DNA of 64,000 nt from Acidobacteriota bacterium (GTDB taxonomy: Bacteria > Acidobacteriota > Vicinamibacteria > Marinacidobacterales > Marinacidobacteraceae). Under the pieces are notes generated by a model. The model ran no database searches, was not told where the DNA came from, and saw only the letters and a program-made list of their open reading frames with translations. Location: assembly GCA_022828085.1 (NCBI GenBank), contig JAJEIY010000002.1, positions 1 through 64,000 on the forward strand, read 5' to 3'. The position numbers and the translations under genes are program-made. Shown here piece after piece: positions 12,307-54,968 of this stretch (its first letter is position 1; every line of letters begins with the position of its first letter).

Positions 12307-12360
12307 GGCTTGGAACGCCGGTCTCCGACCGGCACGCGCGGTGCTCCGCGCCGCGCACGT
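12307..12360. repeat. single left arm of the MITE-like repeat family (copy E)
   Basis: Begins GGCTTGGAACGCCGGTCTCC and continues into GACCGGCACGCG, identical to the 32-bp terminal repeat of the full element at 29006. The second hairpin follows (GCGGTGC, loop TCC, near-complement). It sits between the converging ends of the ligase-CBS gene (stop at 12296) and the BNR protein (stop at 12396). It could fold as RNA from either strand and act like a bidirectional terminator. Confidence 0.85.
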
Positions 12361-29005: not shown

Positions 29006-29209
29006 GGCTTGGAACGCCGGTCTCCGACCGGCACGCGGCCCGAAGGGCCGCAGGCGACGTGTCGCTGTTTGCCCCCACGGGACGCCGGGACAAGCACGTC
29101 CCCTCTGTCCCGGTCGGCTCCGAAGGAGAGGACCATCCCGCAGGTCGGCGTCACGACGTGCGCGGTGCGGAGCATCGCGCGTGCCGGTCGGAGACCGGCG
29201 TTCCAAGCC
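29006..29209. repeat. full-length MITE-like element, copy A (204 bp, perfect 32-bp terminal inverted repeats)
   Basis: Left end 29006-29037 starts GGCTTGGAACGCCGGTCTCC; right end 29178-29209 is its exact 32-base reverse complement. Each end folds into GCCGGTC / GACCGGC with a three-base loop. Inside are GCGGCCC-type and GCGGTGC-type arms, also with three-base loops. The interior matches, in opposite orientation, copies at 39268 and 45907 (e.g. GGGATGGTCCTC, GTCCCGGCGTCCCGTG). No transposase is encoded and no clear target-site duplication is visible. It fills most of the 347-bp gap between ybjQ and the MaoC gene. Confidence 0.9.
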
Positions 29210-30823: not shown

Positions 30824-32503
30824 TTACCGCTCCCCGCGCAGCATCGCCACCATCTTCGCGCTGTCCGGCGGCGGCGGACCCGTCCGGCGGCTCACGAACC
30901 AGGTGACGCCGAAGTTGATCAGCATCCCCAGGGTGCCGATGCCTTCCGGGCTGATTCCGAACCACCACGCCTCCGGGCCGCTCCACTCGAAGACCTTGAA
31001 CCACCCGATGTAGACGGCGGTGAACCCGGTCCCGGCGATCATGCCGGCGACCGCGCCGCGGGCCGTGACCCAGGTGGTGAAGACCCCGAGGACCAGCGCC
31101 GGGAAGAAGCTGGCGGCGGCCAGGCCGAAGGCGAAGGCGACCACGGCCGCCACGTAGTCGGGCGGGTAGATCCCGACGATGATCGCCACCACGCAGGCGC
31201 CGGCGGCTGACAGCCGTGCCGCCACCAGTTCCTGCCGCTCGCTCATCCCGGGCCGCAGGAAGCTCTTCAGCAGGTCGTGGGAGACCGATGCCGAAATGAC
31301 GAGCAGGAGCCCCGCCGCGGTCGAGAGCGCCGCCGCCAGGCCGCCCGCCGCGACCAGCCCGACGACCCACGCCGGCAGTTCCGCGATCTCGGGGTTGGCG
31401 AGCACCATGATGTCCCGGTCGATGGCCAGCTCCGCACCGGGCCCCTCGCTGTACTGCATGAGGCCGTCCCCGTTCCGGTCGGTGAAGCGGATGAGCCCCG
31501 TCGCCGCCCAGTTCCGGAACCAGTCGGGGGCCTCGGCGAACGGCGTGTTGTGCAGCGTCTGGATCATGTTGACCCGGGCGAAGGCCGCCACCGCCGGAGC
31601 CGTCGTGTAGAGGATCGCGATGAAGAAGAGCGCCCACATGACGCTCCAGCGGGCGAGGCGCGCGGTCTTCACCGTGTAGAAGCGGATCAGCACGTGCGGC
31701 AGTCCCGCCGTCCCGGTCATGAGCGCCATCGTGATCGCGAAGACGTCGGGCAGCGTCTTTTTCCCGGCGAGGAAGGCCCCCGTGTACTCGGGCAACCCGA
31801 GGTCGGTGTGGATCTGGTCGATCGCCCGCAGGAGCGCCACCCCCGCGCGTTCCCCCTCGATGAGCGGCGAGCCGAAGCCGATCTGGGGGATCGGGGTTCC
31901 GGTCATCATCCAGGAGATGGCCCCGGCGGGAATCAGGAAGGCGACGATCAGCACGCAGTACTGCGCCACCTGGGTGTAGGTGATCCCCCGCATCCCCCCG
32001 AGCGTCGCGTAGAGGAGCACGATGATTCCGCCGATGGCCACGCCGTACTCCACCGGGATCGTCAGGAAGCGCGAGAACACCACGCCCACGCCGCGCATCT
32101 GTCCAGCCACGTAGGTGAACGAGATGAAGACGGCGCAGGCCACCGCGGTGAGCCGGGCCGTCTGTGAGGCGAAGCGGTCGCCGACGAACTCCGGGATGGT
32201 GTAGCGCCCGTAGCGGCGGAGGTACGGCGCCACCAGCAACGCGAGCAGGACGTAGCCGCCGGTCCACCCCATGAGGTAGATCGCCCCGTCGTAGCCCATG
32301 AAGGAAATGAGCCCCGCCATCGAGATGAAGGACGCGGCGCTCATCCAGTCGGCTCCGGTCGCCATGCCGTTCGCGAGGGCGGAAACCCCGCGTCCCGCCA
32401 CGTAGAAGCCCGACGTCGTCTGGACGCGGCTTGCGACGGCGATGGCGCTGTAGAGGGCGAAGCTGCCGACGACGAAGACCAGGGTCCAGCCGGCGATGCT
32501 CAC
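30824..32503 (-). CDS. sodium:solute symporter, large subunit (VC_2705-like)
   Basis: An inner-membrane carrier of 559 residues with about 13 membrane spans, of the SSS family close to acetate/organic-acid permeases. Typical pieces are FYVAGRGVSALANGMATGADWMSAASFI, LVAPYLRRYGRYTIPEFVGDRF and the LPAWVVGLVAAGGLAAALSTAAGLLLVIS stretch that helps bind sodium. A periplasmic loop holds DRNGDGLMQYSE, a perfect EF-hand-like calcium loop, apparently a feature of this subfamily. The GTG at 32503 overlaps the stop of the small-subunit gene by 4 nt, so the two are translationally coupled. Confidence 0.92.
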   Translation of the reverse strand: MSIAGWTLVFVVGSFALYSAIAVASRVQTTSGFYVAGRGVSALANGMATGADWMSAASFISMAGLISFMGYDGAIYLMGWTGGYVLLALLVAPYLRRYGRYTIPEFVGDRFASQTARLTAVACAVFISFTYVAGQMRGVGVVFSRFLTIPVEYGVAIGGIIVLLYATLGGMRGITYTQVAQYCVLIVAFLIPAGAISWMMTGTPIPQIGFGSPLIEGERAGVALLRAIDQIHTDLGLPEYTGAFLAGKKTLPDVFAITMALMTGTAGLPHVLIRFYTVKTARLARWSVMWALFFIAILYTTAPAVAAFARVNMIQTLHNTPFAEAPDWFRNWAATGLIRFTDRNGDGLMQYSEGPGAELAIDRDIMVLANPEIAELPAWVVGLVAAGGLAAALSTAAGLLLVISASVSHDLLKSFLRPGMSERQELVAARLSAAGACVVAIIVGIYPPDYVAAVVAFAFGLAAASFFPALVLGVFTTWVTARGAVAGMIAGTGFTAVYIGWFKVFEWSGPEAWWFGISPEGIGTLGMLINFGVTWFVSRRTGPPPPDSAKMVAMLRGER

Positions 32504-32778
32504 GAAGGATCCTCGGTGTCTTCGGGCTGGTCGGCGTCCCGCTCGATCCGGTCCATGGCGATCGCGTTCACGACCAGCAGGACCAGGAAGATCAGGATCG
32601 CGCCCTGCTGGGAGAACCAGAAGCCGAGGGGGAACCCGCGGACCCAGATCCGGTTGAGCGGCTCCGCGAGCAGGACGCCCAGGCCGAGCGAAGCGGTGAA
32701 CCAGACCGCCAGGAGAACCGCGATCAGCCGCAGGCTGCGTTTCCAGGCATCCCGCCGGGGCGGGGAGGTTCGAGGCAC
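32500..32778 (-). CDS. symporter small subunit, DUF4212
   Basis: A 92-residue membrane protein with two spans (about 17-40 and 54-76) and the family hallmarks W-x-x-x-LGLGVLLAEPLNRI, GFPLGFWFSQQGAI and LVLLVVNAIAMDRIE. DUF4212 proteins are encoded directly before VC_2705-type sodium:solute symporters and act with them. I chose the GTG at 32778, which gives the usual length. Longer in-frame starts would read into the 32-bp tandem array upstream and yield a low-complexity tail. Confidence 0.88.
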   Translation of the reverse strand: MPRTSPPRRDAWKRSLRLIAVLLAVWFTASLGLGVLLAEPLNRIWVRGFPLGFWFSQQGAILIFLVLLVVNAIAMDRIERDADQPEDTEDPS

Positions 32779-32838
32779 GGTTAGCGTGGATTGAATCAGA
32801 ACCGGCGTCGCGTCGGCATTCGGACGAGTTGCGGCAGG

Positions 32839-33062
32839 CTCCCCGCACTCAGGAGGTCGGCGGGTACAAGCTCCCCGCATTCACGAGGTCAGCGGGCGCA
32901 AGCTCCCCGCATTGATGGGGCCGGTGGGCGCGAACTCCCCGCATTCATGGGGCTGGCGGGCGCAAGCTCCCCGCATTGATGAGGCCGGCGCGCGCAAGCT
33001 CCCCGCATTGATCGGGTTGGTGGGCGGCAGCTCCCCGCATTCGTGAGGCCGGCGGGCACACG
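32839..33062. repeat. tandem array of seven 32-bp units
   Basis: Seven direct repeats with an exact 32-bp period start at 32839, 32871, 32903, 32935, 32967, 32999 and 33031. Each begins CTCCCCGCA (usually CTCCCCGCATT) and ends in a GC-rich segment like GGGCGCAAG; unit-to-unit variation is confined mostly to the middle. A degenerate half-unit flanks each side. Within units GGGG of one copy can pair with CCCC of the next. 32 bp is not a multiple of three, so the array is non-coding. It lies between the divergent symporter operon (start 32778) and coxM (start 33229). Thirty-two bp is close to three helical turns, placing equivalent bases on the same face. Confidence 0.92.
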
Positions 33063-33067
33063 CGCAT

Positions 33068-33141
33068 TGGCGGAACGCCGCGTCCCCGGCGCCGGTTTCG
33101 CGCTCCCGCGCGATGCCGATCAGAGATCGGCGTTCCAAGCC
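33068..33141. repeat. short, degenerate copy of the MITE-like family (copy G)
   Basis: A left-like end with GGCGGAACGCCG is followed about 40 bp later by a right arm GCCGATCAGAGATCGGC-GTTCCAAGCC. The right stem has compensating changes (GATC paired with GATC) that keep the hairpin. It directly follows the 32-bp tandem array, upstream of coxM. Internal sequence of the full element is missing. Confidence 0.65.
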
Positions 33142-33228: not shown

Positions 33229-34098
33229 GTGATTCCACCGTCTTTCGACTATCACGCTCCCGACACCCTGGAAGAGGCGAGCCGGCTGCTGCTGGCGAAC
33301 CCTGAGGCCAAACTGCTGGCCGGGGGTCACAGCCTCATCCCCATGATGCGGTTCCGGCTGGCGGAGCCGGCCGCGCTGGTGGATCTGAGGAGAATCCCCG
33401 GGCTCTCCGGAATCCGCGAAGAGGGTGGCTCCCTGTGCATCGGGGCGATGACCTGCGAGTCGGCACTGGAGAAGTCGGACCTCGTCCAGAGCCGCTACCC
33501 GCTCCTCGCCGACACCACCCGCGTCATCGCGGATCCGGTGGTCCGGAACCTGGCGACCGTGGGCGGGAACGTCGCCCACGCGGATCCCGGGAACGACCAT
33601 CCGGCGACCATGTTGGCCTACCGGGCGTCGTTCGTTGCCTCGGGTCCCTCCGGCCGGCGGACGATCGCCGCGTCCGATTTCTTCACGGGGCCGTTTTCGA
33701 CCTGCCTCGAAGAGGGGGAAATCCTGACCGAGATCCGCATCCCCGAGGCCGGACCCGGTTCCGGAGGCGCCTACCAGAAGTTCGAGCGGAAAGTCGGCGA
33801 CTACGCGGTGGCCGCGGTGGCGGTCCAGTTGCAGCTCGACGGCGGGCGGGTCGCCGGCGCCGGAGTGGCGCTCACGAACGTGGGCCTCACCGCGATCCAG
33901 GCTGGCGCTGCCGAGGCGGCGCTCGTCGGTTCGGACGGCGGTGACGCAGCGCTTGACGCTGCCGCCGAAGCCGCCGCCGCGGCGGCCGATCCGGCGGACG
34001 ACCACCGGGGGTCCGCCGACTACAAGCGCGCGGTGGTCCGTGTGCTCACCCATCGGGCGGCGTCCAGCGCGCTCGCCCGGGCGAGGGAGGCGTCATGA
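33229..34098 (+). CDS. coxM: form I CO dehydrogenase, FAD subunit (CoxM)
   Basis: Medium, FAD-binding subunit (289 residues) of an aerobic molybdenum CO dehydrogenase; it passes electrons from the iron-sulfur subunit to the quinone pool. FAD-binding motifs are AGGHSLIP (about 31-38) and [17 protein letters not shown] (about 105-121). The GTG at 33229 has a strong AAAGGAGGGG 5-6 nt upstream. Its stop overlaps the coxS start by 4 nt. The order M-S-L is that of form I CO dehydrogenase operons. A possible -10 (TATGCT, 33197) lies 27 bp before the start; no good -35 is visible. Confidence 0.9.
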
Positions 34099-36931: not shown

Positions 36932-37894
36932 GTGACCGGACCGACCGACGTCTTCGCCGCGGCCGCCCGTCTCTATCGGGACGGCGTGCCCTTCGTCCTG
37001 GCGACGGTGGTGCGCGCGGAACGCCCCACCTCGGCGCGGCCGGGCGCTAAGGCGATCGTCACCGGCGACGGGGAGTTCCGGGGCTTCGTCGGCGGGACCT
37101 GCGTCAAGCCGGCGGTCCGGCGCGAGTCGCTGCGGGCGCTCGCGGACGGAGCGCCCCGGCTGCTCCGCATCTCCCCGGACAGCCCTCCCGAGGGCGTCCG
37201 CGCGGAAGAGGGAGTACTGGAGGAACACATGGCCTGCGTAAGTGGCGGCGCTCTCGACATCCATCTGGAGCCCTATCTGCCGTCGCGCCGGCTGCTGCTG
37301 GCGGGGAGTTCCCCCATCGTGCAGTCGCTGGCGGCGCTCGGCGAGGCGCTCGGAATGGAGGTCCGGACCGCCGAGACGGCCGGGAATCTGGATGTCGCCG
37401 CGGAGGACGCCTTCGTGGTGGTCGCGGGCCACGGGGAAGGGGAGTGGGAAACCCTGAAGGCCGCGTTGACCGGCGGCCGCGCCCGCTACGCGGGCCTGGT
37501 CGCGAGTCCGCGCCGAGCGGCCGCGGTGCGCGAGCGGCTGGTCGGGATGGGTGTTTCCGAAGCCGACGTCGGACGGCTCCGGTCTCCCGCCGGGCTCGAC
37601 ATCGGGGCCGAGACCCCCGGTGAAATCGCGCTCAGCATCCTGGCGCAGATCGTGGAGGAGCGGCAGGCGCCGGAGCGACCCGCAGCGACTCCGGCAGAGG
37701 CGACGCCGGCCCCGATGGTCGGGATCGCGCTCGAGACCTCCAGCGACGAGCTGGCGGTCGACCCGATCTGCGGGATGACCGTCTCCCGGGACTCTCCCCA
37801 CCGCGTGGAATCGGGCGGCGAGACCTGGTGGTTCTGCTGCGCCGGCTGCGCGGAGACGTTCGCTGCCGCCGGGAAAACCGGCGATACCGCCTGA
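36932..37894 (+). CDS. XdhC/CoxF-like maturation protein fused to a C-terminal YHS metal-binding domain
   Basis: A 320-residue fusion. The N-terminal XdhC_CoxI domain (about 5-75) has GFVGGTCVKPAV in place of the usual SGGCVE. An XdhC-type Rossmann domain follows (about 110-240, with YAGLVASPRRAAAVRERL and AETPGEIALSILAQI). After an Ala/Pro linker comes a YHS domain with DPICGM (C280) and FCCAGC (C302, C303, C306), a cysteine cluster known from copper-handling proteins. XdhC proteins deliver sulfurated Mo cofactor; placed right after coxL, the extra domain could bring copper for the Cu-S-Mo centre. That link is inference. GTG start at 36932. Confidence 0.85.
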   Translation: MTGPTDVFAAAARLYRDGVPFVLATVVRAERPTSARPGAKAIVTGDGEFRGFVGGTCVKPAVRRESLRALADGAPRLLRISPDSPPEGVRAEEGVLEEHMACVSGGALDIHLEPYLPSRRLLLAGSSPIVQSLAALGEALGMEVRTAETAGNLDVAAEDAFVVVAGHGEGEWETLKAALTGGRARYAGLVASPRRAAAVRERLVGMGVSEADVGRLRSPAGLDIGAETPGEIALSILAQIVEERQAPERPAATPAEATPAPMVGIALETSSDELAVDPICGMTVSRDSPHRVESGGETWWFCCAGCAETFAAAGKTGDTA

Positions 37895-54113: not shown

Positions 54114-54968
54114 ATGTATCCGAACCAGTTCGACTACCACCGCGCCGCTTCGGTCGCCGAAGCGGTGGAGCTCTTGTCCTCGCTGCCGGACGCCAAGCTG
54201 GTCGCCGGCGGGCACAGCCTGATTCCCGCGATGAAGCTGCGCGCCGCCCAGCCGGCGGCCCTCGTGGACATCGGGCGGATCCCGGGGCTCTCCGACATCT
54301 CCGCGGACGGCGACGGCATCGTCATCGGAGCGCTCGCCACGCACGCCTCGGTGGCCGGTTCGGCCGCGGTCCGGGGCGGGTGCCCGGTGCTGGCCGAAAC
54401 CGCGGCCGCCATCGGGGACATCCAGGTCCGGAACCGGGGAACGCTCGGAGGCAGCCTGGCCCACGCCGATCCGGGCGCCGACTATCCCGCCGCGATGCTG
54501 GCGCTCGGCGCCGAGATCACCGCGGTGGGAGCCGGCGGCGAGCGGACCATCGCCGCGTCGGACTTCTTCGTGGACATCCTGACCACCGCGCTCGCCGACA
54601 ACGAGGTCATCACCTCGGTCCGGGTCCCGGGCGCCGCGGGCAGCGCCTATCTGAAGCATCGTCACCCGGCGTCCAGCTACGCGGTCGTCGGCGTGGCGGC
54701 CTGCGTGGGACTCGACGGCGGAAACGTCGCGAGTTGCGCCATCGGCATCAACGGGGTCGCCGGCAAGGCGGTGTCGGCCGACGCGGCGGCGGCGGCGCTG
54801 TGCGGCGGCCCGGCGAGCGCGGATCGGATCGCGGCCGCGGCGGCGTGCGTCGGAGAAGCCTGCGGCGAGCCGCTCGGTGACCTCTACGCCTCCGGTGAGT
54901 TCCGGGTCCATCTCGCCGGGGTCTACACGAAGCGCGCGCTGGCCCTCGCTGCCGAGCGCGCCGGCTAG
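54114..54968 (+). CDS. form II-type molybdenum hydroxylase, FAD subunit (CoxM-like)
   Basis: FAD-binding subunit of 284 residues: [13 protein letters not shown] (about 33-45), IGDIQVRNRGTLGGSLAHADPGADYPAAM (about 101-129) and VRVPGAAGSAYLKHRHPASSYAVVGVAA. Together with the two genes before it the complex is complete. The MoxR-type ATPase gene follows 14 bp later, so the structural and maturation genes are one transcript. Confidence 0.93.
   Translation: MYPNQFDYHRAASVAEAVELLSSLPDAKLVAGGHSLIPAMKLRAAQPAALVDIGRIPGLSDISADGDGIVIGALATHASVAGSAAVRGGCPVLAETAAAIGDIQVRNRGTLGGSLAHADPGADYPAAMLALGAEITAVGAGGERTIAASDFFVDILTTALADNEVITSVRVPGAAGSAYLKHRHPASSYAVVGVAACVGLDGGNVASCAIGINGVAGKAVSADAAAAALCGGPASADRIAAAAACVGEACGEPLGDLYASGEFRVHLAGVYTKRALALAAERAG

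Follow-up and report, generated by a model that had tools for sequence, protein, structure and literature searches.

The window, by which we mean the whole analysed stretch of 64,000 nucleotides, lies on contig C1 of a draft genome of 3.57 Mb in 93 contigs (hereafter G000). It carries a tandem array in the intergenic region between two divergent gene sets, with the following features:

30824..32515, minus strand: sodium:solute symporter (SSF) gene, Pfam PF00474
32500..32778, minus strand: DUF4212 small subunit gene, Pfam PF13937, likely GTG start at 32778
32839..33062, plus strand: tandem array of 7 x 32 bp, type I core CTCCCCGCATT and backbone GYCGGYGGG (unit printout, TRF and family profile)
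33063..33090, plus strand: possibly an eighth, degenerate unit (CGCATTGGCGGAACGCCG...), shifted by 5 bp, read by eye
33118..33140, plus strand: REP-like dispersed element GATCAGAGATCGGCGTTCCAAGC between the array and coxM, from a family that is multicopy in the window
33229..34098, plus strand: coxM-like FAD-binding subunit of molybdopterin dehydrogenase, Pfam PF00941 and PF03450
34095..34577, plus strand: coxS-like 2Fe-2S subunit, Pfam PF01799
34570..36915, plus strand: coxL-like molybdopterin subunit, Pfam PF20256 and PF02738

The units of the array follow each other on the forward strand from 32839, 32871, 32903, 32935, 32967, 32999 and 33031, and all seven begin with an exact copy of the head CTCCCCGCA. 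Both a unit printout and TRF thus bear out the first-pass annotation, which had reported seven units of strict 32-bp period with a fixed head; TRF places the array at 32834-33057 (period 32, 7.0 copies, 79% matches, 0% indels, score 259) and also offers a 96-bp reading that scores 311. The next-best TRF row in the window scores 81, which makes this the sole tandem array of such size there and, because every other row scores at most that much, puts it far from chance. The middle of the unit had been described as variable, which is correct but incomplete, since the family profile shows another semi-conserved block, GYCGGYGGG, at positions 18-26. The array is separated by 60 bp from the GTG at 32778, which we take to be where DUF4212 starts, and the coxM GTG (33229) lies 166 bp away on the other side, in agreement with the earlier figures of 60 and about 170 bp. 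A coding repeat was rejected, as 32 is not a multiple of three and the long frames that cross the array would simply run through for lack of stops.

Elsewhere in the window, an XdhC/CoxI protein with a C-terminal YHS domain is encoded at 36932-37894, and a second coxM-like gene (54114-54965), with 45% identity to the first, is kept in six other genomes of the genus. A REP-like element around GGAGACCGGCGTTCCAAGC is present in many copies, for example at 29190, 33122, 39446 and 50043 on the forward strand and at 12308, 29007 and 39187 on the reverse strand, and genes of the PF01797 family (Y1 transposase) number one or two per genus genome.

The first-pass annotation had further suggested that the array tunes the symporter or the CO dehydrogenase operon, and had named its absence upstream of both operons in close relatives with unchanged neighbours, together with a constant copy number, as the observation that would speak against this role. 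We found coxM in seven of the eight genus genomes (93-100% protein identity for the best match), and did not find it in G001, a genome that is 66% complete. The autocorrelation upstream of coxM is 0.88 at lag 32 in G000, and no array was found at this place in G002, G004, G006 or G007 (best autocorrelation 0.49-0.56 at any lag from 15 to 139); the contigs of G003 and G005 reach only about 210 and 133 bp upstream of coxM and were left out of the comparison. On the DUF4212 side, the neighbour can be recognised in G002, G004 and G007, and not in the stretch read for G006, so the array is absent between unchanged neighbours in three relatives and, on the coxM side, in G006 as well, which decides the annotation's own test against its proposal. 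At the window locus the array is private to G000 among the genus genomes that can be judged. In G004, the relative with the closest flanks, a lone CGCATTCGC stands at the matching site and may be a degenerate unit, so that gain in G000 and loss in G004 are indistinguishable. A local operator array that tunes either or both operons through its copy number would fit the position in a divergent intergenic region, as well as the fact that arrays of the same superfamily lie upstream of another gene family (see below). However, the lack of a coxM-upstream array in all four assessable relatives, three of them with the matching neighbour, and the absence of any preference of the superfamily for divergent regions make such a function very unlikely, and we infer no specific effect of the window array on the symporter or cox operon.

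Extending the search for the head to the rest of the genome, as the first-pass annotation had proposed, yielded further arrays on G000 contigs C29 and C49, and arrays with other cores are present on C7, C28 and C49 (near 112-115 kb). Pairs of adjacent type I heads (at most 2 mismatches) occur in six of the eight genus genomes, with 132 occurrences in G004 alone. An exact motif search of named genome contigs returned nine stretches. Seven belong to JAJDUD (Acidobacteria MAG jk18x1bzbins.64) and one to JAPPGX (Acidobacteriota MAG RHO1_bin_67), while the last, with a single match, comes from an Actinomycetales MAG. When only the backbone was searched (two copies 32 bp apart, 3 mismatches), all eight genus genomes gave 13-154 matches, against 0-6 for the reversed pattern. 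In a survey of the class (backbone, 2 mismatches), which is blind to arrays with another backbone, 17 of 193 genomes match: the eight of the genus with 5-106 matches each, and nine of the 185 others with one or two, like the reversed-pattern control. The superfamily is therefore restricted to the genus, one of uncultured Acidobacteriota, being above background in eight of its eight genomes and in none of the 185 others of the class. A phage or plasmid origin was considered and rejected, as no match was found in viral contigs (two patterns), plasmids or phages. We found no description of such an array superfamily in the literature searched, which covered such arrays, sopC, REP/RAYT and TubR-type centromeres.

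We registered 40 arrays from 39 of 40 fetched loci, leaving out the array-less coxM locus L112. They share a layout in which the 32 bp comprise a core of 12-16 bp and the GYCGGYGGG backbone, with several alternative cores and up to 44 units:

Type I: consensus unit CTnCCCGCATTCGnGGGGCCGGTGGGCGTCAG
Type II: consensus unit CCTGGGGCGATATCGGAGTCGGCGGGCTCGAG
Type III: consensus unit CACCCATCGATAACGGGGCCGGCGGGnAGCTG
Type IV: consensus unit CCGACTCGGATATCGACGCCGGTGGGAATCAG
Type V: consensus unit CTGGGATCGATATCGACGCCGGTGGnGTCGAG
Type VI: consensus unit a relative of GGTCGATATC

The typing script put the array of G006:C94 among types IV-VI, though its core reads as type III. When types are compared in pairs, the common register gives a higher identity than any other rotation in 13 of 15 cases, being equal for III-V and lower for IV-VI. 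Within type I (287 units), positions 1-2 and 5-9 of the core hardly vary (1.75-1.97 bits, partly an effect of the head search pattern) and positions 3, 14 and 23 are free (0.40-0.49 bits). Dyad symmetry of the core is significant in type V only (p about 0.01), and as a general feature it was rejected (p 0.2-0.97 in the other types). Genes called by a simple script around the 40 arrays are in tandem in 10 cases, convergent in 7 and divergent in 6, with one side missing in 17; because arrays sit between genes of all three arrangements, they have no general promoter preference. Their flanking genes differ, and a partner gene common to all arrays was discarded. Small proteins with a coiled coil and a membrane segment are encoded near several arrays (L099:6788-7204, L098:7174-7557, L095, L101, L109 and L135), and several of their genes have CGACTTTTCCACATT in common upstream. 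L202:272-356 holds 2.7 copies of another 32-bp repeat, whose unit TTTTCCGCAGACCAGTTGCGGAAAAACACGCC is unrelated.

Two orthologous sites illustrate how these arrays turn over. Locus A lies downstream of a gene of 198 aa, methyltransferase-like by reading of its sequence, and carries type I arrays of 13 units in G000, 9 in G003 and 10 in G007, type III arrays in the opposite orientation in G006 (6 units, at a contig end), G002 (5) and G005 (8), and no array in G004 or G001. Locus B, just behind a gene that reads as penicillin-acylase-like, has five different cores in six genomes: type III in G006 (6 units), type V in G007 (9) and G003 (3), type IV in G001 (40), and arrays of alternating 31/33-bp spacing in G000 (11) and G004 (29 sites, 26 of them in one run); no array was found before the contig end in G002 (133 bp downstream) or G005 (296 bp). 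Copy number thus differs at orthologous arrays (13, 9 and 10 at locus A, 9 versus 3 at locus B), a comparison made between species and away from the window locus. A ParE/RelE-like toxin gene, named by eye, lies directly before an array in G003 and, matched in two pieces, in G001 (L144, L139); tried as a marker of a third locus, it was found there in these two genomes only.

The spacing of units is kept across these changes. Intervals are of 32 bp in 382 of 419 cases and of 31-33 bp in 409, an absolute figure that is biased because detection favoured 31-33 bp. Unaffected by this bias, arrays with longer units keep a short motif at alternating spacings that are also close to whole helical turns: 31/33 at locus B, with GCATGTGTC in G000 and ACATGTCGC in G004, and 20/33 in two G002 arrays with GTCGATA, the linkers differing in both instances. 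An autocorrelation scan of a 464-kb sample of G000, chosen regardless of arrays except that it included the window, found array stretches at three sites for lags 32, 53, 54 and 64, and over lags 20-79 stretches appeared only at 32, 33, 53, 54 and 64, plus one at 45 that looks coding. The earlier proposal that about three helical turns per unit would present each head on the same face of the DNA is therefore supported in part, by the spacing, which persists across the superfamily while cores change; a protein may bind each head.

A candidate for such a protein recurs beside the arrays. From the N-terminus onwards, members of this family show LNLR...ETPPGLDAIRAWxxKPRPWL, then a stretch that looks helical, a linker rich in proline, and finally a C-terminal region that is probably a winged helix-turn-helix domain, a borderline assignment: Pfam Fic-like_C reaches 27.5 bits against a cut-off of 27 in the G003 member and stays under the cut-off in three others tested, and HTH_20 is also under its cut-off. 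The C-terminal domain, modelled from two sequences, has a mean pLDDT of 48.6, and comparison of the family with solved structures, NCBIfam and PHROGs gave nothing convincing. On these features the family likely consists of DNA-binding proteins. A search of nearly all fetched array and sample stretches and of the window gave two C-terminal fragments and seven different genes that are intact. Each of the seven is preceded by a phased array, 119-161 bp from the start in six cases and 443 bp in one:

G003:C37: family gene, array 144 bp upstream, type I
G005:C118: family gene, array 149 bp upstream, type I
G004:C53: family gene, array 443 bp upstream, type I, with IS21-like repeats between
G002:C97: family gene, array 119 bp upstream, type II
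G007:C28: family gene, array 131 bp upstream, type IV
G000:C28: family gene, array 140 bp upstream, GGTCGATA
G000:C49: family gene, array 161 bp upstream, 20/33 spacing

Five of these genes come from loci fetched for their arrays; the other two, both from G000, come from the 464-kb sample, which was chosen without regard to arrays and where the association holds in two of two genes. Between array and gene, GTAAsTkA is present in all seven cases, preceded four bases before by TTAC in six (not in G007). What we place as the likely recognition helix reads MHxxSL in the four members that go with types I and II, and xDxxNL in the three that go with TCGATA/TATCGAC cores, an agreement noticed post hoc in seven cases that are partly related by descent. 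The conserved DNA-binding protein that the first-pass annotation had advised looking for thus has a probable counterpart beside seven arrays, and none at the window array. Most arrays, including this one, have no family gene alongside; in the window we found neither such a gene nor the TTAC/GTAAsTkA element, and its array is therefore an orphan.

These observations suggest, with about an even chance in our judgement, that the window array is an orphan copy from a genus-specific, dispersed family of helically phased arrays whose cores are bound by proteins of this family. Each core would be the binding site of a family protein, with the units brought to one face of the helix by a spacing that amounts to complete turns. 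Next to a family gene, the array would serve as the operator of that gene, and dispersed copies such as that of the window would be binding arrays orphaned by spread or recombination. More tentatively, the phased array, the TTAC-N4-GTAAsTkA element and the gene for a proline-rich winged-helix protein may form a previously undescribed module, in which protein and core diverge together between loci, and from which orphan arrays of equal three-turn spacing spread across the chromosome and give way at their sites to arrays with other cores, possibly the prokaryotic equivalent of a satellite DNA and the protein that binds it.

A neutral or selfish minisatellite would account for part of these data: an ancestral 32-bp repeat, lengthened and shortened by slippage or unequal recombination, would have spread between intergenic sites and drifted with no protein reader, its period kept by descent only. 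The arrays do show what characterises minisatellites, head-to-tail repeats with copy-number differences between related species, and block structure also differs between orthologous arrays. Divergence is greater in edge units than in inner ones (4.98 versus 3.86 differences, p 0.018), neighbouring units are slightly more alike than others within arrays, arrays lie beside any flanking gene in any orientation, and the window locus lacks an array in relatives. Against this, near-invariant core positions and free positions coexist in the type I unit (allowing for the search pattern), the motif is kept in 31/33 and 20/33 arrays though linkers differ, indels are few relative to substitutions (33 per 1219 in arrays versus 21 per 167 in aligned flanking intergenic DNA, a small calibration with overlapping pairs), and an array stands upstream of each of the seven intact family genes. 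We regard neutrality as possible, albeit doubtful.

It is less probable, indeed unlikely, that IS21-family elements make, carry or target the arrays, which would then be landing pads or relics of transposase-binding repeats. A complete IstA-type element does lie within the core of one unit of a type I array (G002:C54, L093:744-3018, with rve and Mu-transpos_C domains and IstB by eye), with the 5-bp GAATG, part of the core, repeated at both its ends; as it sits within the array and has different ends of its own, arrays as IS21 terminal repeats were rejected. Searched with one mismatch, the end-like AACTGGGCCAC has 16 occurrences in the 28.9 kb around arrays versus 12 in 240.7 kb of other sequence from these loci, a comparison in which intergenic and coding DNA are pooled; the 464-kb G000 sample has 10. 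This may reflect targeting or a shared preference for intergenic DNA; however, most arrays, including all those listed for G000, are without such an end, IS ends repeat at 24-25 bp and not at 32, and insertion points vary. REP/BIME-like palindromes or a structured repeat RNA are the most improbable reading of all: REP-like elements are common nearby and the genus has its PF01797 genes, yet the units run head to tail instead of alternating, no Rfam match was found, and a stable palindromic hairpin was rejected for the window array, the only one folded, which is less stable than all 200 shuffles on both strands (z +2.53 and +3.23).

If the preferred reading of protein-bound phased arrays is right, the genus offers a naturally occurring set of paired DNA-binding proteins and tandem sites in which specificity changes fast, a system in which to test protein-site co-change and the reason for the kept spacing, and a rare case of bacterial satellite-like DNA with locus turnover. 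Even if neutral, the arrays account for many contig breaks in the draft genomes of the genus.

With respect to known systems, a CRISPR array was dismissed, as the units are similar over their whole 32 bp and leave no unrelated spacers. Type III toxin-antitoxin systems have RNA repeats directly upstream of a toxin gene, and were rejected here since the neighbours of the window array are DUF4212/SSF and coxM. The terminal repeats of IS21 elements are transposase sites; like them, the arrays are repeated sites, and such ends were found beside several arrays, but the IS ends have 24-25 bp spacing and another sequence, and arrays also exist without an IS. REP/BIME and RAYT systems likewise combine dispersed intergenic repeats with PF01797 genes, and alternating REPs within BIMEs are described in PMC2817692, whereas the arrays of the genus have direct units and, by the fold test on the window array, no hairpin. 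Intergenic tandem repeats have been linked to structural variants in Planctomycetota, according to PMC9426551; VNTR minisatellites of this kind are similarly intergenic, head to tail and variable in copy number, and differ from the present arrays, in which one unit length and layout recurs at many loci of a genus with cores exchanged. Finally, sopC of plasmid F is described in PMC6238139 as a tandem array of twelve 43-bp repeats, within which ParB of F binds ten 16-bp inverted repeats. Unlike sopC/parS and iterons, the genus arrays lie on chromosomal contigs, include many dispersed orphans, have cores that vary by locus and species, and show no general dyad; as in those systems, they are direct repeats of fixed length with a motif, placed in seven cases, though not at the window array, near the gene of a probable DNA-binding protein that would bind them.
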